Part shown: positions 1-35,666 of the stretch, one piece after another | How positions within the stretch are numbered: the first letter of the stretch is position 1 | Layout of the letters: the number at the start of each line of letters is the position of its first letter | NCBI GenBank assembly: GCA_963169055.1 | Contig: CAUJFU010000136.1 | Coordinates: 1 to 40,083 of the forward strand | From: Myxococcota bacterium | GTDB taxonomy: Bacteria; Myxococcota_C; UBA6777 | Direction: 5' to 3' | DNA length: 40,083 nucleotides | Translations under genes and position numbers: made by a program | The notes under the pieces: model-generated | Databases searched by the model: none | What the model was told of the DNA's origin: nothing | The model's input: only the letters and a program-made list of their open reading frames with translations

Positions 1-62
1 CCGCGCTCCCTTGTGGGGTGTGGGGTGAAGCCCCACCAAAACCATCCAACTGCTTAAGTCCT
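1..62 (+). repeat. Two-hairpin dispersed repeat, copy E (partial, cut by window edge)
   Basis: This is the right-hand part of a repeat seen in four more places (13606-13732, 28021-28145, 29144-29266, 35546-35666). It carries the hairpin GTGGGGTGAAGCCCCAC, followed by the tail ACTGCTTAAGTCCT, which matches the tail of the 28 kb copy at all but one base. It lies just downstream of the stop codon of the TldD-like gene, so it could also act in 3'-end formation, although no T-run follows the hairpin. Confidence 0.7.
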
Positions 63-70
63 GCCAACAG

Positions 71-1861
71 TCACTTCGAAGCGAAGGGGCTTGGGAGCAT
101 CCGAGGCTTTTTCTGATCGATCTTGACGCGCTGAAACTCGACGGTTTTCAGCAAGAGGCTTGGTGCGATGGCTGACACAGGAACATAACCTGATTCGGCC
201 CCGCAAAAGCCGTTGAATACGCCATAATCGTCGCCCGTTGCGATGATATTGTTGACGACCGTTAGGGGGGTTCCGATCATCTCAAGCCCTTTGACGAGGG
301 TTTGCTCGCCCGTTTTGGCGTCGATACGCAGGACAAGATTGGGTCGGTTTTTGAAGGATTGGATATCGTAGGTGCTGGTGTGGGTATAGCCACCCGAAGA
401 TTTTCCGATGATAAAGGCGTAAGGTTTGCCCTGTTTTCGGGCTTCTTCGATCAACATCGCACGGAGTTGTTGGATGGAATAAGCGCGATGGCTGCGCACC
501 AACAGGTTTCCTTGACGGCTGACAGGATTTGCGCCAAAGACGCCGCGTCCGTGGGCGTTGGATCGCTTGAATTGATCGATAGGTTTGCGCGAAAGCAAGA
601 AGTTTTGTAGGACGCCTTCTTTGATCAACGAAACGGGTTGGGAACGCACGCCCTGCTCGTCGACGAGATAATGGCCGTTGAGAGGGGTGTCTTGCCAACG
701 GCGAAGGGTGGGATCGTCCAGAACGGAAAGGAAAGAGGGGATAATCTTTTTGCCGATCTTGGAGCGAAAGGTGCGTCCGTCCGATTCGTTCAGCATCCGC
801 TGCGCTTCGAGACGATGCCCAAGGGCCTCGTGAAACAACACACCGGCCACATCATTGAGCAAGATCGCGGGTGCTTCGATGGGTTCGGCTTCGGGTGCGT
901 TGCTGAGATCGACGATCTCTTGGAGTGCGCTTTGCGTGATGGCTGTGAGTTGCTTTTCATCGGGGAGGCCGGCCTCGGTGTCGAAATAAGCCAGCCGGGT
1001 GTTGGAGAGGTATTCTTTTTTTGCCGAGAGATAGGACACTTGGACGACGTACATATACAGGGTTTTGTGTTGAATGACCGCGCTTCCATCGCTATCCACC
1101 GTCACCACAGCGCCCTGCTGGCCGCCCAAAGAGATCGTTGCTTTGACGATGCGGGGATCTTTGAGCGAAAACAGCGAGACCTTCTTGGCGATCTTTTTCC
1201 ATTTCTTCATATCAAAGCGAAGAATTGGCGGAGCATCGGTAAGGAGGATGCGCTGTTCTTTGGAGAAATCGCCGCTTTTGTCCTTGATTTCGACTTTGAG
1301 ACTTTGGACGTAGCGTTTGCGATGGTACTGCGCAAGGCTCTCTTTGTATTCGCGATCCGCAAGCTGCCACAGGCGTTTGCGCAAGGTGGGTTCGTCGAGT
1401 TCTTTGGAAAAGCTGGAGGGGAATTGGAGAAGGTGTCGATAGATCTGCCAGTCGCGCCCGTCAGGTCCGGTGTTATCGCGTTGGTGGTCACCGATGCGAA
1501 TGGACACTTGAAGTTGGTATTTTGGGGATTTTCGATTGTCTTCTTGTTTAAGGATCACCCCGTCGCTGGCTTGAAGAGAAACCGATTGGCTGCGGAGCAA
1601 GCGAAAGCTCGCATAATAGGCCCGAGGCAGCTTTTGGGCGCGGAAAAAGATCATGTACCGCTGGAGTTCTTCGCGCAAGATCGACTGGTATCGTTGGAGA
1701 GACGCGAGGGAACGGGCTTGTTTTTGAGCGTCGGTCTGTTTGGGCGAAGCGGACTTTGAGGCGGCAGGAGGATGCGCAAAGGCCGAAGAGACGGAGACAA
1801 GCAATCCGAAAGCGATCAGACAACAGCGAATGGATGCGGAGGTTCGGGTGGTTTGGGTCAT
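71..1861 (-). CDS. Secreted TldD/PmbA-family metalloprotease-like protein
   Basis: A 596-residue protein of the TldD/PmbA (modulator of DNA gyrase) family. TldD and PmbA (TldE) are known as a cytosolic heterodimeric zinc protease that degrades unfolded peptides and matures microcin B17 and other RiPPs. The zinc-binding HExxxH helix is visible as HEALGH at residues 344-349 after the typical LLNDVAGVLF strand, and the C-terminal half has the usual glycine-rich TldD pattern. Unlike the classical proteins it begins with a signal peptide (charged start, hydrophobic AFGLLVSVSSAFA, likely cleavage near residue 29). The ATG at 1861 was chosen because GGAG lies 6 bases upstream and the signal peptide starts there; an upstream in-frame extension to 2083 would run into the next gene. 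It follows the Omp85 gene by 32 bp and is probably its operon partner. No PmbA partner is present. The family is clear; export is inferred from the N-terminus. Confidence 0.9.
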   Translation of the reverse strand: MTQTTRTSASIRCCLIAFGLLVSVSSAFAHPPAASKSASPKQTDAQKQARSLASLQRYQSILREELQRYMIFFRAQKLPRAYYASFRLLRSQSVSLQASDGVILKQEDNRKSPKYQLQVSIRIGDHQRDNTGPDGRDWQIYRHLLQFPSSFSKELDEPTLRKRLWQLADREYKESLAQYHRKRYVQSLKVEIKDKSGDFSKEQRILLTDAPPILRFDMKKWKKIAKKVSLFSLKDPRIVKATISLGGQQGAVVTVDSDGSAVIQHKTLYMYVVQVSYLSAKKEYLSNTRLAYFDTEAGLPDEKQLTAITQSALQEIVDLSNAPEAEPIEAPAILLNDVAGVLFHEALGHRLEAQRMLNESDGRTFRSKIGKKIIPSFLSVLDDPTLRRWQDTPLNGHYLVDEQGVRSQPVSLIKEGVLQNFLLSRKPIDQFKRSNAHGRGVFGANPVSRQGNLLVRSHRAYSIQQLRAMLIEEARKQGKPYAFIIGKSSGGYTHTSTYDIQSFKNRPNLVLRIDAKTGEQTLVKGLEMIGTPLTVVNNIIATGDDYGVFNGFCGAESGYVPVSAIAPSLLLKTVEFQRVKIDQKKPRMLPSPFASK

Positions 1862-1893
1862 GAAAACTCCTTGTTGTGGAGGGCAGGAAAAGC

Positions 1894-4800
1894 CTAGAAA
1901 GCTTCTCCGATAGAAAAGTGAAATTGCCAGTCGCGCTGGAGAGGATAGCGATCGGCGTCTGGGAAAAGACGCCAAGCGATATCCAGCCGGATGGCTCCGA
2001 TCACGGTGTGATAACGGATGCCAAAGCCAAGACTCCAGCTTGGGCTGAGATCCGAGGGCGGGGCATTCTTGGCATCGTCCCAAAAACGACGTTCCAATTG
2101 AACCACGCCCACATCGGCAAACAAGACGATCCCAAGCGAACTGACGAGAAAAGAAAGCGGGATGCGAAGCTCCAACGATCCGTAGATCTCTTGTTCACCA
2201 CCCATCGGGATCACTTGGACGATGGTATCGGACACAGGGCCATATTCACCGCGTCGGCCATCTTGCGAAAGCGAATCGTTGTAGCGCGCCATATCACGAA
2301 AGCGATCGAGCGCGTTGCGCCCCGTTTGTTCGCGACAACGAACGCCACCTGTCGCGCTTCCAGCACCCGAAAGCGTGATCGCATCGCCTGTGCGGATGCG
2401 AAAGTCGGTGATGCCGCCTTCTCCGCTGGAGGTGTTGGTTTCGACGTAGTTGGGGTTCGCGCCTTGAAAGCTTCGTTGGCACGCCAAAGGCCCGAGATAC
2501 CGAGCTGTCCAGCCTCGCACACTGTTTGCGCCCCCAAGATAAAAGCGCTGCGTCAAGGGGCTTCGATACACAACGCTCGATGTGCGTTTGTCTTCGTCGG
2601 TGATGCCGAAGTTAGGGGGCGAATCACCGATCAAGCGCGTGGAAAACAACACGCCGTACTGAAAGCGCCCTGCGAGGATGACCTTGTCAGGGCCGAGGGT
2701 GGCGAGAGGGATGTAGAAACTGAGTTCGGGTGCAGCTTTGAAATAGGCGTAGGTACCAAGGGCTTGTTGGAGTGTGATCTTGAATTCAAACCCGCTGATG
2801 CGGCGGATCGGATCGTTGAGCCAACTCCAGATCAGTTGTTGCTCAAGGTACGCAAAGGCATAGGTTTCGCGCTCTCTTGGGAGCAAGACATTTTGCACGT
2901 TTGCAAGCTCCCCGTTGAGACTGATGGTGCCTTGGATCGTACCAAAGGTCGGACTCACAAGTAGCGGATAAGAGACGCTCGCCGAAGGAACCAATCGCCA
3001 AAAGTCGGCATCACCGATCTGTTGGGTATAGCTCCCAAGCAAACGCAAGCGAAAGTCGCCTTGGCGCTCGTTGGCAAAAAAAGGCTGCACAAACGAGGCA
3101 GACCCCGTCACATCGGGGCCCGAGTCGATCCGCCGAAGCACATCAGGAAGAAACGACCAACCGGGCCGAAGTTGAAGCTCTAATCGCCCCAACTCACCGA
3201 TGTTATGAATCGTGATGCTACCACTCACTTCTATCTGGTTGCGTTGTCCGTCGATCACAATACCGCCCCCAAACTTCCCAAGCCCGGGTCGATCTTCCCG
3301 AAGTTCGAGGGTGATGGGGATACTGACTTGTTCATTGAGCGCTCGGAAGGCCTGTTCTTCGAGAACAGCGGAGGCTTGAAACTCTTTGTCGAGCAAGGCG
3401 GTTTCTTTTTGAAGGGCCTGTTCTTGGAGCAAGAGAGGATCAAGTTGCTTTTGTGTGAGTTGGATCGCGTTGATATCGTTGAAGAGTTCGATCATCTCGT
3501 CTTGAAGAGGCGTGATCGCGGTGCGCGACTTGTTTTTTTCGCGGTGGGCTTTGCGAAATACACGAAGCTCTTTTGTGGCTTCGCCAATCAAGCGAGCCAC
3601 ATCTTGTTTTTGGATCTCGATCTCGCCCGATCTTGGGACAAAAAGCGGCGGAGGCTGTTGTTGTTCGCGTTTGGCGCGTGCGATCTGAAAAGCGCGGTAG
3701 CTGGTTTCGAGACGCGCTTTTTGTTCATAATACCGCTCGATCCAAGACTGTTTTTGAGCAGCCAGCTTTTCAAGGAGGGCCTTGTTTTGGTTTTGTTTTT
3801 CTGTTTTTTGGAGGCGGATATCACGGGCTTGTCGGATCTGATTGCGCAAGAAGGTTTGTCGAGCGCGAACGCCTGTAATATCGGGCTTAAAGTCGACTGC
3901 GCTAAACAGCCCAAGCCCTGACAGAGTGCGTTGGGTTTGAATCAACGTCTGGATCTTGTAGATCTGGCCTTTTTTGAACTTGATGTAGTTGCGCAACGCC
4001 TTGTAGTTGACACGCGGAGGATACGAGCGCCCGTCGATCATCAGAGGCAAAGGCTTGAGGGCGATCTCCCCAAAGCGGCAAGAAGGGCCGCTATTGATGA
4101 TCAAACGCACCTTGACCGCCGTCCCCGAGCGCGTCGGCGTAGAGACAGCGGTATCGGGGCTTTCAGCGGCGGGCGGACGATCAGAGGGTGGGGTCTGTTC
4201 GGATATCTTGGGCGCTTTTTGGGGACTGGCCTTGCTCTCCAAGGCCACATCCTTTTCGATGACGACTTCACCCGTAAATTCCGCAAGGGCGAAACTGGCG
4301 TCTTGGAGACGCTGCACCACGGCAGCCTTGATATTTTGGTAGTCTGGCGTCGAAAAGCTCTCGCCCTTCTTGATTTTTAATCCCTGCAAGATCTCCGCTT
4401 TGAAAACTTCTTCGATCTTGCGACGCCAAGCGACTTTTGCGCGTAACGAGGGAATCTTGCCTTTGCCATTCCAGAGTTTGAGTTGAACCAGTTTTTTTGC
4501 GACGTACTCATCCGGCAAGCGCCCCAACTGCCAAACGATCTCCGCATCGGTCAAAAGCTCGGCCTGTGGGCCTTCTTGGATCTGAAAGATCACACGAACC
4601 CGTTGATAGGGACGATACGTGTTCTGTTGCGTCAGGATGATCGGAGAATGGGGAGCCTCTTCGACTTTTGCGCGATAAAACCCGTGGTAGCGATAAGCAT
4701 TTTGCAGACGTTGAAGATCAGCCCGAACGATGGCCTTGTTGTAGACGGTATATTGGCCCGAAGCGCGAAGTCTTGTTGTGCGCGCAAAAAACGCCGTAGG

Positions 4801-4986
4801 AGCCGTCTCAATGGCTTTTTGAAGCGTCGAGGATGAGAGTTTTTTGTTGCCTTGAAAGTCAACGCCCCAGATTACTTGAGGAATCGCTCCGAGTCGAGTG
4901 GGTTTGGGTAAACTCGTACATCCGCTCAGAAACAAAGAACAGACCACCAACCATCGAGCGAATAGAGCGGCAGGATCAGGCTTCAT
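1894..4986 (-). CDS. Omp85 (BamA/TamA-like) outer-membrane protein with lipobox and coiled-coil insertion
   Basis: A 1030-residue Omp85-superfamily protein. The N-terminus has a hydrophobic signal ending in a lipobox (LSGC, Cys near residue 23), which would make it a lipoprotein. POTRA-like segments follow (for example the GVDFQGNKKLSSSTLQKAIE region near residue 40 and a second at about residues 290-370). The C-terminal ~400 residues form the 16-strand barrel of the bacterial surface antigen family, with the FYLGGANSVRGW motif (the VRGF/Y loop typical of Omp85) and a terminal phenylalanine. Between POTRA and barrel, at about residues 380-560, is an unusual Lys/Glu/Gln-rich stretch predicted to be coiled coil. 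Family members insert or translocate proteins at the outer membrane. It heads a two-gene operon with the secreted TldD-like protein. The ATG at 4986 precedes the signal peptide directly; the ribosome-binding site is weak. Whether it is a second BamA, a TamA or a specialised translocator cannot be decided here. Confidence 0.9.
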   Translation of the reverse strand: MKPDPAALFARWLVVCSLFLSGCTSLPKPTRLGAIPQVIWGVDFQGNKKLSSSTLQKAIETAPTAFFARTTRLRASGQYTVYNKAIVRADLQRLQNAYRYHGFYRAKVEEAPHSPIILTQQNTYRPYQRVRVIFQIQEGPQAELLTDAEIVWQLGRLPDEYVAKKLVQLKLWNGKGKIPSLRAKVAWRRKIEEVFKAEILQGLKIKKGESFSTPDYQNIKAAVVQRLQDASFALAEFTGEVVIEKDVALESKASPQKAPKISEQTPPSDRPPAAESPDTAVSTPTRSGTAVKVRLIINSGPSCRFGEIALKPLPLMIDGRSYPPRVNYKALRNYIKFKKGQIYKIQTLIQTQRTLSGLGLFSAVDFKPDITGVRARQTFLRNQIRQARDIRLQKTEKQNQNKALLEKLAAQKQSWIERYYEQKARLETSYRAFQIARAKREQQQPPPLFVPRSGEIEIQKQDVARLIGEATKELRVFRKAHREKNKSRTAITPLQDEMIELFNDINAIQLTQKQLDPLLLQEQALQKETALLDKEFQASAVLEEQAFRALNEQVSIPITLELREDRPGLGKFGGGIVIDGQRNQIEVSGSITIHNIGELGRLELQLRPGWSFLPDVLRRIDSGPDVTGSASFVQPFFANERQGDFRLRLLGSYTQQIGDADFWRLVPSASVSYPLLVSPTFGTIQGTISLNGELANVQNVLLPRERETYAFAYLEQQLIWSWLNDPIRRISGFEFKITLQQALGTYAYFKAAPELSFYIPLATLGPDKVILAGRFQYGVLFSTRLIGDSPPNFGITDEDKRTSSVVYRSPLTQRFYLGGANSVRGWTARYLGPLACQRSFQGANPNYVETNTSSGEGGITDFRIRTGDAITLSGAGSATGGVRCREQTGRNALDRFRDMARYNDSLSQDGRRGEYGPVSDTIVQVIPMGGEQEIYGSLELRIPLSFLVSSLGIVLFADVGVVQLERRFWDDAKNAPPSDLSPSWSLGFGIRYHTVIGAIRLDIAWRLFPDADRYPLQRDWQFHFSIGEAF

Positions 4987-5644
4987 CGTCGTTTTGTTAC
5001 CTACAACATGAGGTCAAGAGAAACATCGAGTATGCTCTAGCCCCCCTTGGTACCGAGCGATTCGTACAAAAGAACGCCCAAGGAAGCAGGATATCGCGTT
5101 TAGGTTCGTGGATCCTGCCCGTTGCGTCAAGGAGCGATTAAAAGAATCCGTCACCGAGCGCACCGAACAGACATCGTGGGATGGTTTTGTGGGTGAGACA
5201 TTTTTCACGCAGAGGACTCTGCCGCTTGGAATGTCCGCCATCTGCGCGAAGGAGCAAAGCTTGGGCAAGGATTGGAGCAGGGATGCTCCACAGATCGACG
5301 TTCCAGCGAAAGAGCCGCACGCAAAAAGGCAGACGGACAGATCATAGACAGAGATGGCACAATTTATGATGAGGGCGCATCCCCACAAGCAGAACGCTGC
5401 CTCCCAAGACGGTCCTCGAACAGATCGAGAACGGATCGAGGAGTGTCCCCAAAAGACATGCTGTTTGTCGAAGCGAAAAGCGCCAAGCAGCGGTCTTTTT
5501 GGAAAAAGAAGATACAAAAGGCAAGCAAGATCGTTGAAAAGAGACTCGCGGTTGGGCTATACAAGACGGCCTGTGCGAGATCAGCAAAGAGAAAGAACCA
5601 AGGTTCGCGAAAAACACCGCGACCGCGTCGAGGAGTGATAGGCC
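4987..5644. other. 658-bp region between divergent genes, no convincing gene
   Basis: This stretch separates the Omp85 gene (minus) from the small barrel protein (plus), so promoters for both should lie here. Several overlapping open frames of 60-180 codons exist on both strands, but they overlap one another, have arginine- or cysteine-rich composition without domain-like patterns, and lack good ribosome-binding sites. I saw no tRNA, riboswitch or repeat. A short cysteine-rich product on the minus strand (5014-5517) cannot be fully excluded. Confidence 0.5.
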
Positions 5645-6244
5645 ATGAAAAAGTTGCTGTTTTGGATCCCGTTGGCTTGCCTGTTTTGGGTTTCGTTGCC
5701 CGCTCAAGAAGCCGAGGCTTATTGGGGCTATCGCAACTATACCGTAGAACGCCAAACCTTTCGTCCGCGTTTTTCTGTGACGCTTGCGGGCGGTCTACAC
5801 TTTGTGGACTTTTTTGACAACGGCTCTTACGGATTCACGTACGGTTTGATCGAAGCGGGTGGTCACTTGTGGGTTCATCCCAATATCTCGATCGACTTGA
5901 ACGTCGGGGGACACCTGACCGCAAACAACTGGAGCGGCCAAGGATGGGGCTATTTGAGCATCAAGCCGGGTGCGCGCTTCCGTTTTGGTATCTTTTACTT
6001 GCGGGCAGCCGTGGATCTTGGGTTTGGTTCCCCCCAAGTCTCGCCAACCACCGCAACCGATATGCGCTCGCGCAGCAAAGAAAGCTCGCTGTTTTTGTTT
6101 GGTATCCTGATGGGCGCAGGATTGCGCATCCCTGTGAGCCGCCATGTTCGGGTGTTTGGAGAGCTGACCTACCAGTTCAACTTCTCTCCTGATCCGCTGT
6201 ATATGCCGTTCTACGGCCAAGTCGGTGTTGAAGTCGTTTTCTAA
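5645..6244 (+). CDS. Small outer-membrane beta-barrel protein
   Basis: A 199-residue protein with a clear Sec signal peptide (MKKLLFWIPLACLFWVSLPA, cleavage after the AEA near residue 25). The mature part is made of alternating aromatic/glycine strands such as FSVTLAGGLHFVDFF, GLIEAGGHLWV and ISIDLNVGGHL, and ends in VGVEVVF; a terminal Phe is typical of outer-membrane barrels recognised by the BAM complex. Size and pattern fit an 8-stranded OmpA/OmpW-type or 'outer membrane beta-barrel domain' protein of unknown cargo. The ATG at 5645 has GGAG about 10 bases upstream. The HEPN/ATPase gene starts 95 bp downstream on the same strand. The role is unknown. Confidence 0.82.
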   Translation: MKKLLFWIPLACLFWVSLPAQEAEAYWGYRNYTVERQTFRPRFSVTLAGGLHFVDFFDNGSYGFTYGLIEAGGHLWVHPNISIDLNVGGHLTANNWSGQGWGYLSIKPGARFRFGIFYLRAAVDLGFGSPQVSPTTATDMRSRSKESSLFLFGILMGAGLRIPVSRHVRVFGELTYQFNFSPDPLYMPFYGQVGVEVVF

Positions 6245-6339
6245 AACCGACGCAGCGCACAAAAGGGGGAGGGTTGAGGGGAACGGAGCAATCTTCATCC
6301 TTGCGGAGGGCGTTTCATCCGTAGGAGGGTGGGTCGCAG

Positions 6340-8163
6340 GTGGAACAAACACACCATCAAGAAGACATCGAGATCTCAGAGGGCGGTTTTCCGGGTGGAT
6401 GGGGGGCCGATTCGCCCTATCGCAAGTGGCCGCAGCCTGTAGGTTCGGCGATCATCGATATGCTACAAGAACCCCCGATCAACAGTGCAGACGAGCTGGT
6501 GCATCTGCTCGAAGTATGGTTGCGCCATATCGGTCTATTGTGGATGGCGTCCTATATTCGGGGAGGATGGCACGATCCACGTCTTGATCGCCTGTTGTTT
6601 TCGATGCTGTTGGATGGAGAGCGGGATCTTTCGGTGGGCGCATGGGCTTATCTAGGATCGCAGATCTTCCACACCTATCGTCGTCATGGATGGGATGCGG
6701 ATTGGCCGCAGTTGTCGTCGTTTGATTATGGCGATCCACGCGATGAAGAATCGCGATTGTCTCGGCTGCTCCGCTATCGCAACAGTTTTGCGCATGGCAG
6801 TTTTCAAGCAGCCCTACAGGATATCTTGGAGCATCGGCGTTTTTTGTGGGAGATGATCGCAGCATTTGATGCCTTGCGTGAAGCCCCGATCTTGTTTTGG
6901 GAAAGCGAGCAAAAACGTTGGTGTTGTATGGATCTTGACGCAACACCGTGGGAAGGCGAAGTCCCCAACGAGGTGCAACACGACACACTGTACTGGCGCG
7001 TAGGGACGGGACGATGGTTCACCCTTTCGCCTTGTTGGTCGGTCCAACAAAAAACGACTCCCGCGTTGTACGCAAGCCATCCGTTTCATCTCGTGCCTTT
7101 TTCTGTGTCTCAAAGCACGGTGGCTGAACGCGAAGCAGCGTTGTCTGCTCACCCACAGATCGCAGCACATCTTCAACGATACCAGTCGATACGGATGGGG
7201 CATCTGGACGGCCATCAAACATGGGACGGGGAGACTTTGGAAGCACTCCATCCCGACACGCGAGAGAGGATCCTTGAACGCTTGCGGGGTGCGTTATCCA
7301 AAAAACAGCCCGACAAACCCAACTTTGTTTTGGTATCCGCTTACCCGGGCAGCGGGAAAAGCGCATTGGTTGGCCAAGCCGATACGTTGTTTTCGGGCTT
7401 TGATCAAGTGATCCGTTACCGCGTGGATCGGCACACTCCGTCGCTTTCGGGCAGAACCTTCGCACGTTACCTGCTGCGGAAGTTGGACTCGTATCGCGCA
7501 AAAGACGATGGCAGCGAAGAAACAGCCTCTTCTCCTGAAGAAGCCTTGCATCGGGCATTTGCAGAGTTCTCACGCCACAACAAACGCTTGTTGGTGTGTG
7601 TCGATCGTTTTCATCTGGCGTATGAATCCTTTCAAAAAGACCCTTCGATCTATGAAATCTTGTCGAATCTTCGGGGAGAATGGGCTTCAAGCCTGTGTTT
7701 CTTGTTGGCCGCCCGAACAGGATACCGCGATCATCTGATGTACGACACGGTGATCGAATTGCCCCCTGTCGAGTTCGACAAGACAGATGCTTATCCCCGT
7801 CTATTGGGGGAGTTGGGATTATTGCTGGGTGATCCAGATACTCCTTACCCACCTGACGAGGTCAGGCTACGAAGGCACCTGTTGCGGATACTCGCGGCAG
7901 AACCCCAAGCTGTGTCGGTGTTTTCGTTGTGTGATCGGCTGCACGAAGAAGCGGATCGCAGAATCCTCGATTGGACAGAAGAACAACGGTTTTCGCCGCA
8001 CATCGAGCGGATCCTCTGGGAACTGCGACCGATCCTTCGATGTGAAACGCGCCAAGAGGAAGATGGGTTTGAACGGCGGTTATACCGACCGTTTTGTGTG
8101 GGCTTTGCGCGTTATCTGGCATCGGAGATCGCGTATGGTGGCGGGAAAAGGAAGACAGGCTAG
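6340..8163 (+). CDS. HEPN-motif N-terminal domain fused to STAND-like P-loop ATPase
   Basis: A 607-residue soluble protein with no signal peptide. Residues ~35-165 are helical and contain R147-N-S-F-A-H152, which fits the Rx4-6H signature (often RN...H) of HEPN ribonuclease/dimerisation domains. A P-loop NTPase follows, with Walker A YPGSGKS (residues 335-341) and Walker B LLVCVD ending at D422, then AARTGYRD as a sensor-like motif and a helical C-terminus. The layout resembles STAND or AAA-type regulatory ATPases, in which nucleotide binding controls an effector. HEPN-ATPase fusions are known in anti-phage and stress systems, so a conflict role is a reasonable inference but unproven. The start is GTG at 6340, supported by AGGAGG at 6323-6328, 11 bases upstream. 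No toxin/antitoxin partner was recognised next to it; the neighbours are an outer-membrane protein and a convergent lipoprotein. Confidence 0.75.
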   Translation: MEQTHHQEDIEISEGGFPGGWGADSPYRKWPQPVGSAIIDMLQEPPINSADELVHLLEVWLRHIGLLWMASYIRGGWHDPRLDRLLFSMLLDGERDLSVGAWAYLGSQIFHTYRRHGWDADWPQLSSFDYGDPRDEESRLSRLLRYRNSFAHGSFQAALQDILEHRRFLWEMIAAFDALREAPILFWESEQKRWCCMDLDATPWEGEVPNEVQHDTLYWRVGTGRWFTLSPCWSVQQKTTPALYASHPFHLVPFSVSQSTVAEREAALSAHPQIAAHLQRYQSIRMGHLDGHQTWDGETLEALHPDTRERILERLRGALSKKQPDKPNFVLVSAYPGSGKSALVGQADTLFSGFDQVIRYRVDRHTPSLSGRTFARYLLRKLDSYRAKDDGSEETASSPEEALHRAFAEFSRHNKRLLVCVDRFHLAYESFQKDPSIYEILSNLRGEWASSLCFLLAARTGYRDHLMYDTVIELPPVEFDKTDAYPRLLGELGLLLGDPDTPYPPDEVRLRRHLLRILAAEPQAVSVFSLCDRLHEEADRRILDWTEEQRFSPHIERILWELRPILRCETRQEEDGFERRLYRPFCVGFARYLASEIAYGGGKRKTG

Positions 8164-13458: not shown

Positions 13459-13481
13459 ATCGGATAGGAGTGACGCGGTTG
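13459..13481 (+). repeat. Half-copy of 37-bp palindromic repeat
   Basis: These 23 bases match 13580-13602 with a single difference (gcGgttg versus gcAgttg). They correspond to the right arm of the palindrome at 13565-13601, while the left arm is absent. The two copies are offset by 121 bp. Confidence 0.8.
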
Positions 13482-13512
13482 AAGAGGGAAACCGTGAAGA
13501 ATCAACCCGTTG

Positions 13513-13536
13513 TAGGGGCGGTTCGCGAACCGCCCG
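13513..13536 (+). repeat. GTAGGGGC-type palindrome, short copy
   Basis: The 24 bases contain the perfect palindrome GGGCGGTTCGCGAACCGCCC and match the left part of the MITE-like elements at 26796 and 39223. The second hairpin and closing GCCCCTAC of those elements are missing here, so this is a partial or ancestral unit. Confidence 0.85.
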
Positions 13537-13564
13537 CGCCGGAACATGGGCCTTTTTCGTATCG

Positions 13565-13601
13565 AACTGCGTAAGTCCTATCGGATAGGAGTGACGCAGT
13601 T
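13565..13601. repeat. 37-bp palindrome (ACTGCGTAAGTCCTATC type)
   Basis: The left arm AACTGCGTAAGTCCTATC and right arm GATAGGAGTGACGCAGTT are reverse complements over 18 positions with two mismatches, centred on G13583. The left arm recurs as a tail of two-hairpin copies B (28151-28171) and E (48-62). It would form a strong hairpin in DNA or RNA. Confidence 0.85.
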
Positions 13602-13605: not shown

Positions 13606-13732
13606 CAAAAAACCCCGTGTTCGTGCCGCTTGAAGCAACAGAGTCGTTGGTCTGGAAAGACGTGATCTGTTCGCCCCTCTCGGGGTCAAGGGAGCCGCGC
13701 TCCCTTGCGGGGCGTGGGGTAGCGCCCCACAA
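13606..13732 (+). repeat. Two-hairpin dispersed repeat, copy A
   Basis: From left to right it has an AAAAACCCCGTGTTCG block, a GTTGGTCTGGAAAGACG block, GGGGTCAAGGGAGC-CGC-GCTCCCTTG (hairpin I, 9-bp stem CAAGGGAGC/GCTCCCTTG) and GTGGGGTAGCGCCCCAC (hairpin II). The same blocks occur in the same order in copies B, C and D. The 37-bp palindrome ends 4 bp before it. Confidence 0.85.
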
Positions 13733-26744: not shown

Positions 26745-26780
26745 AAAGAATCGCAGCCACGTGGTTCGATTTATACGATT

Positions 26781-26883
26781 GTGTGATCGCATCATGTAGG
26801 GGCGGTTCGCGAACCGCCCTGTGTTTGGGCAGCCACGGGGGGCTGCCCCTACATTTTTACGATAACACAACGGGCGGATTTCG
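26781..26883 (+). mobile_element. MITE-like repeat, 26-kb copy (terminal repeats eroded)
   Basis: These 103 bp match 39208-39310 except for one substitution (A26794 versus G39221). The core at 26796-26852 starts GTAGGGGC and ends GCCCCTAC, and holds the perfect palindrome GGGCGGTTCGCGAACCGCCC and a second hairpin GGGCAGCC/GGCTGCCC followed by CTACATTTTT. The second hairpin plus T-run could end transcription from the BatB gene. The outer 13-bp inverted repeats seen in the 39-kb copy are incomplete here. No reading frame is present. Confidence 0.85.
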
Positions 26884-27905: not shown

Positions 27906-28345
27906 CTTCCACAACCTTTCTTTAAGCTTTCTCTATCCGTTCTCGCACACAAAACTGTGTGGTCCTTCGCCTGCAAACGATCAAACCCAAGAATCTTTCT
28001 ATTGTGAGGCGTCGCTTATTGAAAAACCCCGTGCTCGCGCCCTTCCAAGCGAGAGAGCCGTTGGTTTGAAAAACGATGATCTCTTCGCCAATACAGGGTC
28101 ACGGGAGCCGCGCTCCCTGCGGGGCGTGGGGCAGCGCCCCACAAAAGCATCCGACTGCGTAAGTCCTGTCCTAAAACAAATCCGCTCTTGTTTTGTTTTT
28201 TGGGGCCACACTTTACACTCGCCACTCAAAAACAGCACAACCACCATCAAACCTAGGTACACTTCGTCGCGCTGTGTTATATTCCTATCGCTTGGTCGAA
28301 ACCAAGAGGCGTCCCCCATACTCCAGACACAAGGTCGGACACAAG
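27906..28345. other. 440-bp intergenic region with a two-hairpin repeat
   Basis: This is the divergent region between the minus-strand membrane protein and the TPR gene. Copy B of the two-hairpin repeat occupies 28021-28171; the remainder should contain the promoters of both genes. Open frames here run through the repeat and are not credible genes. Confidence 0.6.
28021..28145 (+). repeat. Two-hairpin dispersed repeat, copy B
   Basis: It has the AAAAACCCCGTGCTCG and GTTGGTTTGAAAAACG blocks, hairpin I GGGAGC-CGC-GCTCCC and hairpin II GTGGGGCAGCGCCCCAC, in the same order as copy A. It is followed at 28151-28171 by CGACTGCGTAAGTCCTG, the left arm of the 37-bp palindrome, as in copy E. Confidence 0.85.
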
Positions 28346-29098
28346 ATGCGAACCCCTCGGCGCTTTTTCTCTCCATCGACTCCTTCCCTTCCTCCAACGT
28401 CTCCTTTATCTCGCCCGCTCTCCTTGCTTGTTCGGTGCTTTTTTGTTCTGGCTTTGCTGCTTTTGTTCTTTCACTCTCCCTCTTCTCACTCACAAGATCA
28501 CCAAGGCTGGCTTGCCCGCACCTACCGCCTTTTTCAACAAGGCAAACTCCCAGAAGCCCTTCAACTTCTCCAACAGGCCGAACAAGCCGTCGGCCCTCAT
28601 CCCGCGTTCTTTTACTACAAGGGCTTGATCTTCCAAGCTCTCCGACAGCCCGACCAAGCCCTTGATGCCTATCGGCAAGCCGAACCCGCCATCGATCCCA
28701 AGTTTCAGCCTTGGCTGCTCAATAACCTCGGTAACCTTTTCTTTCAAAAAGGCCGCTACCGCACCGCCGCACGCTATTACGCTCGCGCACTTCAAAAAGA
28801 TCCAAACTATCCCCGCGCACGCTTCAATCTCGAACTCGCCCTCCGCGCCATCCAACAACCACCCCCTCCTCCTCCCCCCCCCAAATCCCGACAACAACCT
28901 CCTCCCCCTCAACGCCGCGACAGCAAACGTCCTCCCCCGCCCCGCCCTCGCAAAAAAGATCAAGTCGTCGCTCCTCCCAAACAGCGCAAATGGGCTCTCC
29001 CCCCCGCGAACGCCTTCCAACTCAAAGCCTTCGACCGATTTCTCCCTTACAGCCGTGTGCTCAAACATCACAAACTCCGCACACAACAAACCCCATGA
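28346..29098 (+). CDS. TPR protein of the Bat cluster (BatC-like), proline-rich
   Basis: A 250-residue protein with an N-terminal hydrophobic segment (LLVRCFFVLALLLLFFHS, about residues 28-45) acting as signal or anchor, about three TPR units (GWLARTYRLFQQGKLPEALQ, HPAFFYYKGLIFQAL, WLLNNLGNLFFQKGRYRTAARYYARAL), and a Pro/Arg/Lys-rich tail including eight or more consecutive prolines encoded by a C/T tract near 28861-28890. In Bat operons BatC is a TPR protein following BatA/BatB, which fits this position. The ATG at 28346 has AAGG about 11 bases upstream; an earlier in-frame ATG (28193) would add 51 residues without protein character. Its stop overlaps an in-frame ATGATG of the next open frame. 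Confidence 0.75.
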   Translation: MRTPRRFFSPSTPSLPPTSPLSRPLSLLVRCFFVLALLLLFFHSPSSHSQDHQGWLARTYRLFQQGKLPEALQLLQQAEQAVGPHPAFFYYKGLIFQALRQPDQALDAYRQAEPAIDPKFQPWLLNNLGNLFFQKGRYRTAARYYARALQKDPNYPRARFNLELALRAIQQPPPPPPPPKSRQQPPPPQRRDSKRPPPPRPRKKDQVVAPPKQRKWALPPANAFQLKAFDRFLPYSRVLKHHKLRTQQTP

Positions 29099-29143
29099 TG
29101 CGACCCTTCCGCCTTCTCCATGATCGTTTTTTCTCTTGCTTTC

Positions 29144-29266
29144 GTGGGGTTCCACCCCACACCCTGCAAGGGGTCTCTGCCCCCTTGACCCCGTATCGGC
29201 GAAACCAACAGACGTTTTTCAAACCAACCACTGCGTCGCTTGAAATGGCGCGAACGCGGCTTTTTT
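29144..29266 (-). repeat. Two-hairpin dispersed repeat, copy C, across a gene start
   Basis: Read on the minus strand it has the same block order as copies A and B: CCGCGTTCGCGCC, GTTGGTTTGAAAAACG, hairpin I CAAGGGG/CCCCTTG, hairpin II GTGGGGTTCCACCCCAC on the outer end. On the plus strand it is open throughout in the frame of the Omp85 gene and contains the ATG at 29245. Confidence 0.85.
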
Positions 29267-31311
29267 CTGCACTGCACCATGCCGGTCTTCGTTTCTCCAT
29301 ACTTGTCGCCCTCGTCTTCTGCTTTCGACCTCTCGGATGGACTTCTCCTGAAACGCATACAAACACCCAACCATCGGTTTCTTCCAAACCTACTTCCGCA
29401 AACGCCCAACCATCCGCCTCTTCCAAACCCACAACGTCTCCCACTACCCAAGCCTCCAACAAATGGAAACTGCAAGTCCGTCAAAGATACGAAGGGGCTT
29501 TGTTGGCGTGGGCTTTACAAAAAACAGGACTCGCGCTTGAGGCCGATCCCAAGGGCAAGATCATCGACAAAGTGGTGATCGCCCGAGAAAATATCATCGC
29601 TCGCACCGATCCGTGGCCTTACTTTCTCAACATCTTCCACTACAAAACACGCGAATCGGTCGTGCAGCAAGAACTCTTGATCCAAGAAGGTGCGGTCTGG
29701 AACCCCGCACTGATCGAAGAAACCGCACGCAATCTGCGTGGGATGTCGGTACTGGCGGCTGCGATGATCGTGGCTTGTCGTAGTCCCAAACCCAATCGCG
29801 TGATCATGCTCGTGATCACGAAAGACATCTGGAGCATCCGCTTTAATTCGAGCTACAGCCTCGTCGGGAGCGCCATCCAACTCGGCGAACTCTTCCCCAC
29901 CGATATCAATCTGCTTGGTCTCAACAAACAACTCGCCTTGCACCTGCGCATCTCTCAGCTCGACCTCAGCAACTTCCGCCTCTACGATCACTTTGGTATC
30001 GGGCAACTCTTCTACGATCAACGCTTCTTTGGCTCTCGCTTTCAAGTCTACGAACGCCTCAGTTTCTACATCAACGGCGATGTTCCTTGCGCAGGCGCAC
30101 AAGGCACACAAACCAACGTCTGGTGTCCCACCCAAAAATTCGGATCTCTTCAAGGTGTCTATGGGCAATTTGCCGTCCTCTATCCGTTGTTTTCGCTTGC
30201 GAGCCAATGGGGATTTCGATTTGAAACCACCGTCGATAGCCGACAACGCCGACTTTATCGCCAAAACCCCGACACCCAAGCCCCTCCCCTCGGCGAACAA
30301 CAAGGCGTCTCGATCCGCGCCGCTACGTTCGACCAACATCCCGACGGCGTCATCCGCGCAGTCCCCCGTGTCTACGATGCTTTGCGCGTCACAGGCATCC
30401 TCAGCATCACCCGCTCTTTTGGAACCACGCTCAAACACGACCTGTCTTGGGGGCTTTCAGGATACTACGATCGCAACACACCTCCCGAACCTTTCCCGTT
30501 CGACGATATCACCCGCACATGGATGCGCAAAACGATCCTCCCGCGCAACGAATCCGCGATCTACGCCTTTGTCGGATACAACACCCGAAACACCCAATTC
30601 ATCCGCCTTCGCAATGTCCGCGCCTTTGCACTCAGCGAAGACTACGCCCTCGGTCCTTCCCTCTGGACCGAGTTTCGCGTCGCCAAGGATCTCGATTACC
30701 TCAATCAATACTTTTTTGAAGCCTTTGCGAGCGCGTCCTATCGCTGGCATATCCACGGTGATCTCTTGCAGATCGGAGTGTACGCCTTCACACGCTTCCA
30801 ACCGCTGATCCAAGAACGCACAGATCTCGGATTTTCCGACCCTTGGATCGATCAGTTTTTCCAAGCCTACCTCTACAACATCAGTCCGTTGTGGGGTATC
30901 GGGCGTTTGCACTTCAAAGCCTTCGTTCAACTTCGGCGCAACGATATCGACCGCAGCGTCTCGACCCTCGGTGCAGACAACGGCTTGCGCGGTTATCTCA
31001 GCAGCGTCTTTGAAGGCCAACACCTCTTTCGCATCAACCTCGAATACCGCAGCCTCCCACTCAATCTCTGGACCGTTCACGTCGGATTTGTCGCCTTTTA
31101 CGATGCAGGAGCGGTCTTCGGTGGCGATGACCCCGCAAGGCCCGGACAATCCCTCCCCTTCCTCTACAAACAAAGCATCGGCGTTGGCTTGCGCTTCCAA
31201 TTCCCCCAATTTGACCGCGAAGCCATCCGCATCGATATGGGCATCCCCCTCTCTGACGGCGGCGGTAGCCTCGGTTCTTGGTTCTCGCTCTCCTTTGGAC
31301 AGGCCTTCTAA
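29245..31311 (+). CDS. Omp85/TamA-like outer-membrane protein of the Bat cluster
   Basis: A protein of about 688 residues with a signal peptide (FSILVALVFCFRPLGW, residues ~18-33) and a Ser/Thr/Pro/Gln-rich linker. A POTRA-like region follows (~95-195: IVVARENI-type strand at KVVIARENIIARTDPWPYFLN, then VVQQELLIQEGAVWNPALIEETARNLRGM, typical of POTRA beta-alpha-alpha-beta-beta units). A long barrel with many aromatic strands contains GADNGLRGYLSSVFEGQHLFRINLEYR, matching the conserved RGY/F loop and strand of Omp85 proteins; it ends SLSFGQAF. It is probably an outer-membrane translocon or assembly factor connected to the Bat-type genes upstream. The start is uncertain. ATG 29245 gives a normal signal peptide but lies inside a dispersed repeat and has no Shine-Dalgarno; ATG 29095, overlapping the previous stop, would add 50 residues before the signal and encode most of the repeat. 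Confidence 0.82.
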   Translation: MARTRLFSALHHAGLRFSILVALVFCFRPLGWTSPETHTNTQPSVSSKPTSANAQPSASSKPTTSPTTQASNKWKLQVRQRYEGALLAWALQKTGLALEADPKGKIIDKVVIARENIIARTDPWPYFLNIFHYKTRESVVQQELLIQEGAVWNPALIEETARNLRGMSVLAAAMIVACRSPKPNRVIMLVITKDIWSIRFNSSYSLVGSAIQLGELFPTDINLLGLNKQLALHLRISQLDLSNFRLYDHFGIGQLFYDQRFFGSRFQVYERLSFYINGDVPCAGAQGTQTNVWCPTQKFGSLQGVYGQFAVLYPLFSLASQWGFRFETTVDSRQRRLYRQNPDTQAPPLGEQQGVSIRAATFDQHPDGVIRAVPRVYDALRVTGILSITRSFGTTLKHDLSWGLSGYYDRNTPPEPFPFDDITRTWMRKTILPRNESAIYAFVGYNTRNTQFIRLRNVRAFALSEDYALGPSLWTEFRVAKDLDYLNQYFFEAFASASYRWHIHGDLLQIGVYAFTRFQPLIQERTDLGFSDPWIDQFFQAYLYNISPLWGIGRLHFKAFVQLRRNDIDRSVSTLGADNGLRGYLSSVFEGQHLFRINLEYRSLPLNLWTVHVGFVAFYDAGAVFGGDDPARPGQSLPFLYKQSIGVGLRFQFPQFDREAIRIDMGIPLSDGGGSLGSWFSLSFGQAF

Positions 31312-31351
31312 CCCAACGCCCCCAACGCCCTCCAACGCCTCTTTCCTCCGA

Positions 31352-31381
31352 TTGCATCGTGTGTCGCAATTGTGCTAGGTT
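31352..31381 (+). promoter_or_regulatory. Candidate promoter of the kinase gene
   Basis: TTGCAT (31352-31357), an 18-bp spacer and TAGGTT (31376-31381). Transcription would start near 31388, downstream of a possible GTG start at 31385, which favours the ATG at 31448. Confidence 0.35.
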
Positions 31382-31447
31382 GTCGTGTACTCTACTGCGC
31401 CGCAGATCGGCGATCTTTGCGCCACTCTTTCGCCACACAGTCAACCC

Positions 31448-34400
31448 ATGAGACCACGAGAGGCGATCTTGACATCTCCCCGCTCTACCACCCCCGAACG
31501 ATGCCCGCGCTGTAGTCACACCCTGACCCGCAGCCCCAACGCAGAACTGGCCTTTTGCCTCAATTGCCGCTTTCCGCTCAAACCCATCGCTGGAAAGTAC
31601 CGATTGATGCGCCAACTCGGCAAAGGCGGCACGGGCACCGTTTATCTCGCCAAACACATCCACCTCCGACGACAGGCCGAGCGCGTCGTCAAGGTCGTCC
31701 CCCTCGAACCCACCCAAACCCACCAGATCGAACGCTTCGAACAAGAGATCCAAGTCACCGCGCTTCTTTCTCAACAAAACGAACATATCGTCCGCATCTA
31801 CGACGATTTTGGACACGAGCCTGAACTCGGCTATTACTACGTCATGGAATTCCTTGAGGGCCGCAGCCTCCGCGAGATCCTTATCCAACGCGAGCGCCTT
31901 TCCCCCAAAGAAGCCATCCATATCACCCACCAACTCTGTCTCGCCCTTCAACTCGCCCACTCCGAAGATATCATCCACCGCGATATCAAACCCGAAAATA
32001 TCCTTGTCATCGAACGCAACGACGATCCTTTCTTTGTCAAACTGATCGACTTCGGCATCGCCCACCTTCTCGAAAACCAAAGCAACGACGGCCCCGCACA
32101 AGTCATCGTCGGAACCCCCCTCTACATGGCCCCCGAACAATGCCTGAACCGCACCATCGACGCACGCACCGATCTTTACGCCGTTGGCATCGTGCTTTAC
32201 GAGATGCTTACCGGCCAACATCCCTTCGTCGATATGCACAACCTCGACCAAAGCAACAGCCTTTCCATCATGTTCGCCCAAGTCTGGAACGCCCCACCCA
32301 GCCCACACGAGCGCTTCCCCGCCCTCCAAGCCCCCAAAAAACTCGACGATGTGATCGCCAAAATCCTCGCCAAAGACCCCAACGAACGCTTCCAACACGC
32401 CCAAGATATGGACACCGCACTCCAACGCGCCGCCCAAGATGCCGATTGGTCCGCCACTTCCACTTCTCCCGCTGCTTCGACCACCCACTCACGACCTCCC
32501 CAGATCCACCACACCGTCAGCGAACTAGACCGATCCAGCGCTCCCACCGACCCTTACCCCGGCACACAAACGCGCATCCAACACGACACTTCCGAGCAAC
32601 CCGACGTAGCCCCAATCCAGATCGAAAGCGACCTTCTGCCTTCCGCCTCTGACTTTGATGAACATGAAAAAGAAAAAGAAAAAGCTCCCATCGTCTATCG
32701 CACGCTTCTTAGTGCGCAACTTGCGAGCTTGCCGCGACCCAAGCTCCAAAAGACCAACATCCGCCCTCCCCACAAAAGCTTTGTCGGACGACACCAAGAA
32801 CTCCAAGATATCCAAGATGCTTACGCACGCGGCGAACGACTCGTCTCTCTCCTTGGCCCGGGTGGCACAGGGAAAACCAGTCTTGCACAACACTTCGGCC
32901 TCCAACAAGTCGACCAATTTGACGGTGGTGTCTGGTTTTGCGATCTCAGCGAATGTTATTCCCTCCCCGAGATGCTTCAAGCCATCGCCCAAGCCCTCCG
33001 CATCACCCTTCACGCGGGTGAAGCCGAACAACACATCCACCAGATCGGCTACGCCCTGCATTGTCGCGGCCAAGCCCTGATCATCCTCGACAACTTCGAG
33101 CAGATCACCCCCCACGCACTTCCCACCGTTGGCCGCTGGTCTCAAGAAGAAAGCCTCGTCCGCTTTCTTGTCACCTCACGCGAAAAACTCCAAATCATCG
33201 GTGAATGCGCTATCCCTCTACCCCCACTCCCCGAAGATCAAGCCGTTCAACTCTTCCTCGATCGCGCACGCACCCTCCGACCACGTTGGCAACCCAACCA
33301 CCAAGAACTCCGTACCATCGAACAGATCGTCAAGCACCTTGATCGCCTTCCCCTTGCCATCGAACTCGCCGCTGCACGCATCGATATCCTCTCCCCGCAA
33401 GCGTTGTTCGAGCGCCTCCAACAACGCTTCAACCTCCTCTCTCATCCAAGCCAAGGCGTCCCCGCTCGGCAAGCCACTCTGCGCGGAGCCATCGACTGGT
33501 CGTGGGATCTCCTGAGTGACGCAGAGCGCGACGCCTTCACCCAATGCGCCATCTTTCGGGGCGGCTTTACCCTCGAAGCCGCCGAGCGCATCCTTCAACT
33601 CGACCCGCTCCCCAACGCTCCTTCCACCATCGATCTGATCCAAGCCCTCCGCAACAAATCTCTTCTCTACATCCTCCCCAACGAACACGCCCAACAAAAC
33701 CAACGCCTCGGCATGTACGAAAGCATCCGCGAATACGCCAAAGAACGCTTCCATCAATCCCCAAAACGCGGCGATGTGGCCGCCATGCACGCAGCGTATT
33801 ATCTCGAACTCGCCGAATCTTTTCTCCACGATCTTCACGGAAACAACGGCCTTTCCAACCTCCGCCAGCTTCTTGCCGAAACCGAAAACCTCCAAGCCAT
33901 CTTCGACCGCTACGTCCCCCACGACCCCAACGTCGCTCTGCGCGCCCTTCTTGTCCTTCAACCCGCCCTTGAACGCAAACAAACCCAAGACACCATGCTC
34001 CAGATGGTCCAACTCGTCCTCAACCAACAAGACAAAGTCCAGCCCGCTCTCTATCCTCGCGCTTTCCGCCTCTATGCCCATCTCTGCCGACGCCTCGGCT
34101 ATCTCGACCAAGCCAACAAAAGCCTACACACCGCCATCACACAAGCCATCCAACACTTCGACCCCCTCGAAGAAGCCCAAGCCCGCCTCGCCCAAGGGCA
34201 TCTCTTCGCACAACGCCGACAACGCGAAGAAGCCGAACTCGCCTTCCGTTCGGCACTCCTGTTCTTCGAGCAAAGCAAACAACACCCCCACCTGCTCGCC
34301 AACACCTACAACGATCTCGGCTCTCTCTTCCGACAAAACGGCTCCCTCGAAGAAGCCGAACCCTACCACCTCAAAGCCCTTTCCCTTCAACGCCAATACG

Positions 34401-35503
34401 CCGATAGCAACGGCGAAGCCATCACCCTCGGACAACTCGGACACCTCTATCGTCTCCAAGGCCGATACCACGAAGCCATCCACGTCTACGATCTGGCCCT
34501 CTCTCTCCACCGCGCTTGGGAAGATCGCATCGGCGAAGGCATCACCCTCAACAACCTTGCCAACATCCACGCCCGACAGGGCCGACTCACCGAAGCCGAA
34601 GCCAACTACCGCACGTCTCTCTCTCTTCACCGCGCAGGGGGTGACCGACGCGGCGAAGCCATCGCCCTCGGACAACTCGGAAATCTCCTCCTCCTGCTCG
34701 GAAAGACCGACGAAGCCGAGCGGATGCAGATGCAAGCCCACACCCTCCACGAAGCCCTCCACGATACCAAGGGCCTCTCCATCTCCCTCAACAACCTCGC
34801 CAATCTCTACCGCGCACAACACCGTCTTGCCGAAGCCAAGGCCCTTTACCAACAGGCCCACGAACTCCAATCCCAACAACAAGATCCCCTCGGACTCGCC
34901 TTTACCAACCTTTACACCGCCCTGCTTCTACTCGAAGAAGATCCCCAACACCCCCAACTTCCGCAACACCTCCAAGATGCCCTCGACTTCTTCTCCAAAC
35001 GCCAACAACAACAAGAGTTTCACGGCCTTGCTCTCTCCGCGTGGGGTTCTTTTCATCGCGCCCTTGATCGCCCCCAACAAGCCCTCTCTTTCTACCAAAA
35101 AGCCCTCCCTTGCTTCCGAAACACCGATGCTCGCCTTGATGCTTGGACTCGCGCCACCATCGGCGCTTTGCGTGCCGACCTCGGCGAGATCGTCCCCGCC
35201 GAACAAGTCCTCCTCCACGCCTCCGAAACCATCCAACGACTCGAAGATCCCCTCGGACGCAGCTTTGCTCTCCTCTGCCGCGCACACCTCGACCTCGCCT
35301 TCCAACGCGAAGCCCTCCAACACAACGACCCCACCGCCGCACAACACCACCTCTCCACCGCAAAACACCGCCTACACCAAGCCCAACAACCCCTCCCCCA
35401 ACAAAACAACCCTCCCTCCGCCTTCTCCCCCGAGATCCGCCTCGCCATCCGCGCCTTCCAATCCCTCCTCCCCACCGTTCCCCCTCCACCCAAAGCCCTT
35501 TAA
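31448..35503 (+). CDS. Zinc-ribbon / Ser-Thr protein kinase / STAND ATPase / TPR multidomain regulator
   Basis: About 1351 residues. The N-terminus has a zinc ribbon (CPRC and CLNC; C19, C22, C37, C40). An intact Hanks-type kinase domain follows (~50-320), with glycine loop GKGGTGTVY, VAIK-type Lys82, HRDIKPEN (177 onward), DFG (201-203) and APE in MAPEQ. After a disordered linker comes an NB-ARC/AAA-like STAND module: FVGRHQEL, Walker A GPGGTGKT (470-477), Walker B ALIILDNFE (~540) and TSREKL sensor, then a winged-helix-like part. The C-terminal ~550 residues are tandem TPRs of the kinesin-light-chain type (GEAIxLGxLGxLYRLQGRY). Such kinases sense an input through the TPRs and couple it to NTP switching and phosphorylation. 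The ATG at 31448 is used; GTG at 31385 with AGG upstream is possible. The nearby PP2C may be its antagonist (inference). Confidence 0.9.
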   Translation: MRPREAILTSPRSTTPERCPRCSHTLTRSPNAELAFCLNCRFPLKPIAGKYRLMRQLGKGGTGTVYLAKHIHLRRQAERVVKVVPLEPTQTHQIERFEQEIQVTALLSQQNEHIVRIYDDFGHEPELGYYYVMEFLEGRSLREILIQRERLSPKEAIHITHQLCLALQLAHSEDIIHRDIKPENILVIERNDDPFFVKLIDFGIAHLLENQSNDGPAQVIVGTPLYMAPEQCLNRTIDARTDLYAVGIVLYEMLTGQHPFVDMHNLDQSNSLSIMFAQVWNAPPSPHERFPALQAPKKLDDVIAKILAKDPNERFQHAQDMDTALQRAAQDADWSATSTSPAASTTHSRPPQIHHTVSELDRSSAPTDPYPGTQTRIQHDTSEQPDVAPIQIESDLLPSASDFDEHEKEKEKAPIVYRTLLSAQLASLPRPKLQKTNIRPPHKSFVGRHQELQDIQDAYARGERLVSLLGPGGTGKTSLAQHFGLQQVDQFDGGVWFCDLSECYSLPEMLQAIAQALRITLHAGEAEQHIHQIGYALHCRGQALIILDNFEQITPHALPTVGRWSQEESLVRFLVTSREKLQIIGECAIPLPPLPEDQAVQLFLDRARTLRPRWQPNHQELRTIEQIVKHLDRLPLAIELAAARIDILSPQALFERLQQRFNLLSHPSQGVPARQATLRGAIDWSWDLLSDAERDAFTQCAIFRGGFTLEAAERILQLDPLPNAPSTIDLIQALRNKSLLYILPNEHAQQNQRLGMYESIREYAKERFHQSPKRGDVAAMHAAYYLELAESFLHDLHGNNGLSNLRQLLAETENLQAIFDRYVPHDPNVALRALLVLQPALERKQTQDTMLQMVQLVLNQQDKVQPALYPRAFRLYAHLCRRLGYLDQANKSLHTAITQAIQHFDPLEEAQARLAQGHLFAQRRQREEAELAFRSALLFFEQSKQHPHLLANTYNDLGSLFRQNGSLEEAEPYHLKALSLQRQYADSNGEAITLGQLGHLYRLQGRYHEAIHVYDLALSLHRAWEDRIGEGITLNNLANIHARQGRLTEAEANYRTSLSLHRAGGDRRGEAIALGQLGNLLLLLGKTDEAERMQMQAHTLHEALHDTKGLSISLNNLANLYRAQHRLAEAKALYQQAHELQSQQQDPLGLAFTNLYTALLLLEEDPQHPQLPQHLQDALDFFSKRQQQQEFHGLALSAWGSFHRALDRPQQALSFYQKALPCFRNTDARLDAWTRATIGALRADLGEIVPAEQVLLHASETIQRLEDPLGRSFALLCRAHLDLAFQREALQHNDPTAAQHHLSTAKHRLHQAQQPLPQQNNPPSAFSPEIRLAIRAFQSLLPTVPPPPKAL

Positions 35504-35545
35504 TCCGCTCACTTCTTTTCTCTTCTGCTTTTTTGCTTTGGTGAT

Positions 35546-35666
35546 GTGGGGTTCCACCCCACGCCCCGCAAGGGACCGAAGGCCCCTTGACCCCCTATTG
35601 GCGGGACGCACAGACGTTTTCCAAACCAACAACCCTGCCGCGTGAGTGTCCTCGAACACGGCTTTT
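35546..35666 (-). repeat. Two-hairpin dispersed repeat, copy D
   Basis: Read on the minus strand it has CCGTGTTCGAGG, GTTGGTTTGGAAAACG, hairpin I CAAGGG/CCCTTG with loop GCCTTCGGT, and hairpin II GTGGGGTTCCACCCCAC. It fills most of the convergent space between the kinase stop and the M19-like stop. Confidence 0.85.

Follow-up and report, generated by a model that had tools for sequence, protein, structure and literature searches.

Repeat copies in the window

The window analysed here is a stretch of 40,083 nucleotides from contig C136 of a Myxococcota bacterium draft genome (6.59 Mb, 523 contigs, 86% complete). It carries five copies of a repeat with two hairpins, all lying at the positions and on the strands reported by the first-pass annotation, which was made from the sequence alone. 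Copy 1 (1–62, plus strand) is cut by the contig end and consists of the 3′ part only, with the 3′ arm of hairpin I at 5–13, a G-tract at 15–18, hairpin II at 20–36, and a cross-hairpin pair in which T at 14 is opposite the loop A at 28. Copies 2 and 3 are full cores on the plus strand. Copy 2 (13606–13732) has hairpin I at 13687–13707, the G-tract at 13709–13712 and hairpin II at 13714–13730, and its cross-hairpin pair is C 13708 with the loop base G 13722. The corresponding positions in copy 3 (28021–28145) are 28100–28119, 28121–28124 and 28126–28142, with C 28120 paired to the loop G 28134. Copies 4 and 5 are full cores on the minus strand, so that hairpin II comes first in forward coordinates: copy 4 (29144–29266) has hairpin II at 29144–29160, the tract at 29162–29165, hairpin I at 29167–29187 and a cross-hairpin pair between the loop base 29152 and 29166, while copy 5 (35546–35666) has hairpin II at 35546–35562, the tract at 35564–35567, hairpin I at 35569–35589 and a pair between the loop base 35554 and 35568. 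Searching with a profile built from the window copies recovers the four full cores (E about 1e-31 to 1e-35). The loops of hairpin II have 3 nt rather than 5, the closing pair being C-G, T-A or T·G; those of the two minus-strand copies had been read from the wrong strand, and are TGGAA on the element strand.

Three terminal arms are recognized beside these copies, all given on the plus strand: the left arm of copy 2 (TAGGAGTGACGCAGTT, 13586–13601), which is an imperfect inverted repeat common to a second repeat family, the right arm of copy 3 (ATCCGACTGCGTAAGTCCTGTC, 28149–28170) and the right arm of copy 1 (ATCCAACTGCTTAAGTCCTGCC, 44–65). The second family measures 116 bp from TIR to TIR, contains the palindrome GGGCGGTTCGCGAACCGCCC, and occurs in the window at 13464–13582, 26780–26883 and 39207–39310. 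It is unrelated to the hairpin repeat, yet is bounded by the same terminal arms, and one of its copies directly abuts copy 2. Among the genes of the window, that at 31385–35503 encodes a protein of 1372 aa with protein kinase, NB-ARC/AAA and TPR domains, and two neighbouring FGE-sulfatase-domain genes (38037–39107 and 39375–39851, the second being shorter) are 79% alike over 226 bp.

Abundance and distribution

The count of five copies proved far too low for the genome. In 60 arbitrarily picked contigs, comprising 675 kb, there are 51 full-length and 18 partial copies, which extrapolates to about 500 full-length copies in this genome, or about 670 including fragments. Counted in the same way, the sister species, Myxococcota bacterium MAG.451, has about 700 full-length copies. 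An exact two-hairpin pattern gave 347 matches in this genome and 348 in the sister genome, but none in 384 further genomes, which include three of the same family, and a reversed control pattern matched in none of the genomes scanned. Among these genomes the repeat is restricted to one genus; its phylum in GTDB comprises only five genomes. The copies had been described as intergenic, which is true of most but not strictly, as 17 of 118 scorable copies overlap a crude gene call. A literature search returned nothing relevant on the repeat sequences or on chromosomal repeats resembling a single-strand origin (sso).

Anatomy of the element

The anatomy was taken from an alignment of 192 distinct copies (140 columns, element strand). 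The core is about 125 bp, or 150–190 bp with flanks. The 5′ half begins with an A-rich start, followed by CCCGTGTTCG and by a region closed by GCGA/TCGC (34–37 with 70–73). Then come GGGGTCAAGGG-hairpin I-CCCTTG at 80–105, a single pyrimidine at 106, GGGG at 107–110 and a 3-nt linker, the first base of which is 111; hairpin II, at 112–128, has the form GTGGGG-Y-NNN-R-CCCCAC. The plan of the 3′ module can be written as GGGTCA-hairpin I-Y-G-tract-NNN-hairpin II, with a triloop in hairpin II. Hairpin I exists in several compensated classes, for example AG..CT, GG..AC, GA..TT, GC..GT and C(GNNA)G, and on the element strand a G·T pair is common at 91–99 (GT 60, AC 2). Predicted folding is strong in two of the window copies (z about −2.7 to −3.7) and less so in the other two (about −1 to −1.8).

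Two departures from this plan were seen in hairpin I. In 20 of the 192 copies (such as L099:6322–6446) it is broken by a CTATGG arm, which is found with many loop and hairpin II types. In others the 3′ arm is swapped for roughly its inverse, AAGGG replacing CCCTT (L069, L097, L108, L155, and L078 compared with L152); L078 and L152 represent a single shared locus at which the sister copy is intact, which suggests a hairpin-templated mutation.

The terminal arms, GGASTKACGCAGTTG, are flanked by TA. Allowing at most one mismatch, they occur 105 times per strand genome-wide against none in the control. They are present at both ends in about 20 of 99 copies and absent from 34 of 99, and the distribution of arm mismatches peaks a second time, at the random level. 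Identity of the core to the consensus is nearly the same with or without them, being 80% in the arm-less copies compared with 83%.

Covariation and a cross-hairpin pair

The first-pass annotation took paired changes in the hairpins to imply that the structure is selected, and named a covariation test across genomic copies as a check. Hairpin I has several length classes, because of which RNAalifold recovers only 9 pairs from the raw alignment; covariation was therefore measured by counting over the named structure. In 87 copies, 91% of cells pair in this structure. Double changes are found in 13 of 21 named pairs (shuffled mean 6.4, with 1 of 500 shuffles as high) and in 126 cells (shuffled 45, with 0 of 500 as high), and the covariation score is 0.202, compared with 0.124 for shuffled alignments and at most 0.094 for slid versions of the structure. 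The paired changes are thus real genome-wide, and the test comes out strongly, far beyond its controls. It is concluded that the structure matters among the copies that spread.

A further pair had been overlooked. It joins position 106, the base immediately 5′ of the G-tract before hairpin II, to position 120 in the middle of the hairpin II triloop, and in 192 copies it is CG in 88 and TA in 80; the closing pair of the loop, 118–122, is CG in 95 and TA in 89. In an unselected list of 95 copies from the sister genome, 106–120 is TA in 48, CG in 44 and something else in 3, that is, standard in 92 of 95. The association between the two positions is strong (Cramer V 0.87), whereas 106 is associated neither with the intervening position 111 (0.13) nor with 118 (0.01), so neither linkage nor subfamily structure explains the pair. 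On a tree, 28 co-changes on the same branch are inferred, of which 26 lead to standard pairs. Taken by itself, this tree test is weak and not decisive for the pair, since the pair's score is reached by 0.27 pairs per alignment in a tree-based null (E about 0.27). No clear rule of the same type was found for hairpin I between base 79 and its loop.

Comparison with the sister species

Syntenic stretches of the two genomes are 88–96% identical, and 16 loci could be resolved. Eight of these have a copy in both species and eight in one species only, and the element is therefore mobile, or was so recently. At the eight shared loci the core is 91.5% identical, compared with 91.6% for the 150-bp flanks; stem arms and loops change freely there and stems break. 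At one shared locus the copies differ by 22%, as if one had been replaced. Orientation relative to neighbouring genes is even (30, 26, 23 and 22), matching the background and including divergent gene pairs, and no bias was found in the orientation of the element relative to GC skew. With moderate confidence, since eight loci are few, there is no purifying selection on the core at shared loci, and selection at the level of the host is not seen. The earlier statement that the structure is selected thus holds among spreading copies, where covariation exceeds its controls, but is not supported for a function in the host. Given that core and flanks are alike at shared loci and that gene orientation is random, the structure is best regarded as a property needed by the spreading copies.

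Insertion sites and candidate enzymes

Exact direct repeats of 12–28 bp, each unique in the sequence examined, flank five of 199 copies (L211:4550–4787, L075:11450–11650, L206:6940–7143, L153:4851–5037 and L034:6167–6342), and one of the five repeats is present as a single copy at an empty site. Their length varies, which is unlike DDE elements. The remaining copies have no recognizable flanking direct repeats. Where terminal arms are present, TA adjoins them; inverted complementarity between the flanks of TIR-less copies was not above control.

A REP-type transposase acting on the structure had been suggested as one of two possibilities, the other being RNA, and a search for a RAYT/TnpA-REP partner found none. 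With controls that registered as expected, this genome was found to contain no Y1_Tnp domain and the sister only two marginal fragments; full-length genes are confined to three family members that lack the repeat (G002, G003 and G004). Profiles PF01609 and PF13358 matched nothing in this genome and gave matches only in the sister. No partner transposon bounded by the terminal arms was found among the arm positions of these draft assemblies. A 2-kb pair of arms on contig C435 was considered as an autonomous transposon and rejected, as it encloses a MurC-like ligase gene. A reverse transcriptase gene of about 720 aa with two RT domains in tandem (G000:C386:16205–17866) has matches in all five family genomes, including the three relatives without the repeat, so RT genes do not track the repeat. 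The search for a Mob_Pre gene gave no match, and is uninformative as it had no positive control.

The 3′ module in plasmids and phages

Searching plasmids and phages with the entire repeat gave no match, but a query of the 49-base module turned up small mobilisable plasmids and ssDNA phages, and the 3′ module occurs on its own in viral contigs. With the 49-base query, BLAST gives weak matches in plasmids (E 5e-4 to 3), and the link to sso sequences therefore rests on structure, position and the cross-hairpin pair. The repeat profile, run with nhmmer, picks up the module in plasmids from Streptomyces and Brochothrix and in pRGI00763 (E 5e-9 to 5e-4). In viral contigs that have the hairpin I arm, 106–120 is Watson–Crick in 10 of 10; among viral pattern matches lacking that arm the figure is 9 of 28, several of these being real modules with imperfect arms. 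Taking plasmid and phage modules with hairpin I together, the pair holds in 17 of 17, and three further loci, which the script mis-registered or missed, were read only by eye. Across these modules the lengths of the tracts scale together (2, 3 or 4), and the tracts of two plasmids are mirrored (AGG/GGA).

In plasmids of Listeria, Brochothrix, Latilactobacillus, Priestia and Streptomyces, the module is situated 5′ of a mobV/pre gene. When the Brochothrix region was used as query, 158 plasmids were retrieved, including pTA1060 at 6452–6552, the published sso of which occupies 6349–6549 (PMC4595007). An sso starts the complementary strand by means of RNA polymerase or primase (PMC5714925, PMC5703833). 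Three stem-loops are important in the related sso of pBAA1, and a different sequence with the same structure still functions as an sso (PMC4595007). The end of the pTA1060 sso reads CCAACGGCCATCCGTTGG-T-GGG-TTT-GGG-CAAAG-CCC, which is the same plan as the repeat module. The repeat thus resembles the pTA1060/pBAA1/ICEBs1 sso1 type in its last two stem-loops, with hairpin I, one base, a G-tract, a 3-nt linker and a triloop hairpin II, and in the Watson–Crick match between the base before the tract and the middle base of the loop. It also has the fixed order of stem-loops and the conserved spacing in the 3′ part that characterize this sso class. Only the last two stem-loops correspond, however: the first sso stem-loop and the 5′ half of the repeat have no convincing alignment, and the hundreds of copies are chromosomal rather than part of a rolling-circle or conjugative replicon. 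An sso activity of the repeat would be a prediction. As to whether the structure acts as RNA or as single-stranded DNA, the related modules found in single-strand origins of plasmids point to single-stranded DNA.

Discussion

We propose that the repeat is a mobile element, non-coding and non-autonomous, which contains an sso-like module of single-stranded DNA with a structure kept by propagation, and give this reading about an even chance of being correct. As it spreads, the element would pass through a single-stranded stage; folding of the module there may, as in an sso, help to start synthesis of the complementary strand. Cutting and joining would be the work of an enzyme provided in trans, and the hairpins would be kept by selection among propagating copies and not by the host. 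Because the G-tract, the G-tract of the stem and the C-tract are equal in length, and because of the cross-hairpin pair, we suggest a model in which the 5′ G-tract docks along hairpin II in a purine-triplex-like manner and so brings the covarying base to the loop. Several observations go against this reading: the copies are chromosomal with no replicon involved, the first sso stem-loop has no convincing counterpart in the repeat, the BLAST matches in plasmids are weak, the copies with TA-flanked TIRs at both ends look like an ordinary MITE, about 10% of copies have the CTATGG arm that breaks hairpin I, the orientation of the element is unbiased relative to GC skew, and the tree test by itself does not settle the cross-hairpin pair. 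The element would be filed most closely as MITE-like with an sso-like module; membership of the sso class is not claimed, since defining features are absent or putative.

It is possible but doubtful that the repeat is an ordinary MITE on whose TA-flanked TIRs a DDE transposase acts, with the hairpins as passengers and the TIR-less copies as decayed ones. The excess of arms over the control, the copies with both arms, and the use of the same arms by the unrelated 116-bp palindromic repeat, such that one enzyme may move both, speak for it, but arm-less copies have nearly the same core identity as the rest, the second mismatch peak is at the random level, neither an arm-bounded transposase nor a PF01609 or PF13358 match was found in this genome, and the cross-hairpin pair is left unexplained. 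The repeat does resemble the MITEs ERIC, Correia/NEMIS and RUP (PMC2229807) in being small, non-coding, structured, of high copy number and mostly intergenic, in its presence or absence between relatives, and in the TIR and TA ends of some copies. It differs from them in that most copies lack TIRs while the core persists, in direct repeats that are long and variable where seen, and in its sso-like core module. The covariation might instead be mutational, with template switching at quasi-palindromes and gene conversion between copies matching the arms without selection. We consider this unlikely: the inverted hairpin I arm at the L078/L152 locus, the shared locus that seems to have been replaced, and the CTATGG arm in many backgrounds are of the expected kind, but no palindrome places 106 and 120 symmetrically, and the two covary across unlinked intervening columns and in unrelated plasmids and phages.

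The variable direct repeats and the two-domain reverse transcriptase gene in both genomes would suit a retroposed SINE-like element, whose structured RNA is copied and inserted by target-primed reverse transcription. This is quite unlikely, however, with so few copies having direct repeats, the same enzyme in three relatives that lack the element, and no evidence of a tail or transcript. That the host maintains the repeat at many genes, as a structured RNA or a terminator, is very unlikely: its strong folding in some copies, its covariation and the frequent G·T pair at 91–99 are outweighed by the equal numbers in all gene orientations, by cores that diverge as fast as their flanks and stems that break at shared loci, and by a covariance-model search that found no Rfam family at gathering score. 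A REP-type element, whose single-stranded hairpins are mobilised by a RAYT/TnpA-REP transposase, is highly improbable. The unpaired 5′ G-tract before a small-loop hairpin does recall the tag-plus-hairpin architecture of REP/BIME/REPIN sequences (PMC8266576, PMC3116915), and the copies are likewise numerous and extragenic, but there is no GTAG or CGTC tag, the unit is far longer than 20–40 bp (PMC3733652) and has two unlike hairpins in fixed order, and the Y1_Tnp results offer no RAYT.

A wider form of the sso-like proposal, which we put forward only tentatively, is that a chromosomal element has turned a plasmid-type sso into its own propagation signal: it would exit as single-stranded DNA, be made double-stranded from the folded module and reinsert, reaching hundreds of copies, and single-strand origins generally would contain a tertiary element that has gone unrecognised, namely the cross-hairpin pair with the docked G-tract. 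To our knowledge, high-copy bacterial repeats usually have no known route of spreading beyond REP/RAYT and classical MITEs. If the proposal is true, a repeat built on a plasmid-like sso would connect repeats of the chromosome with rolling-circle and conjugative DNA. Independently of it, the covarying base between G-tract and triloop makes a precise prediction for the folding of plasmid and phage single-strand origins.
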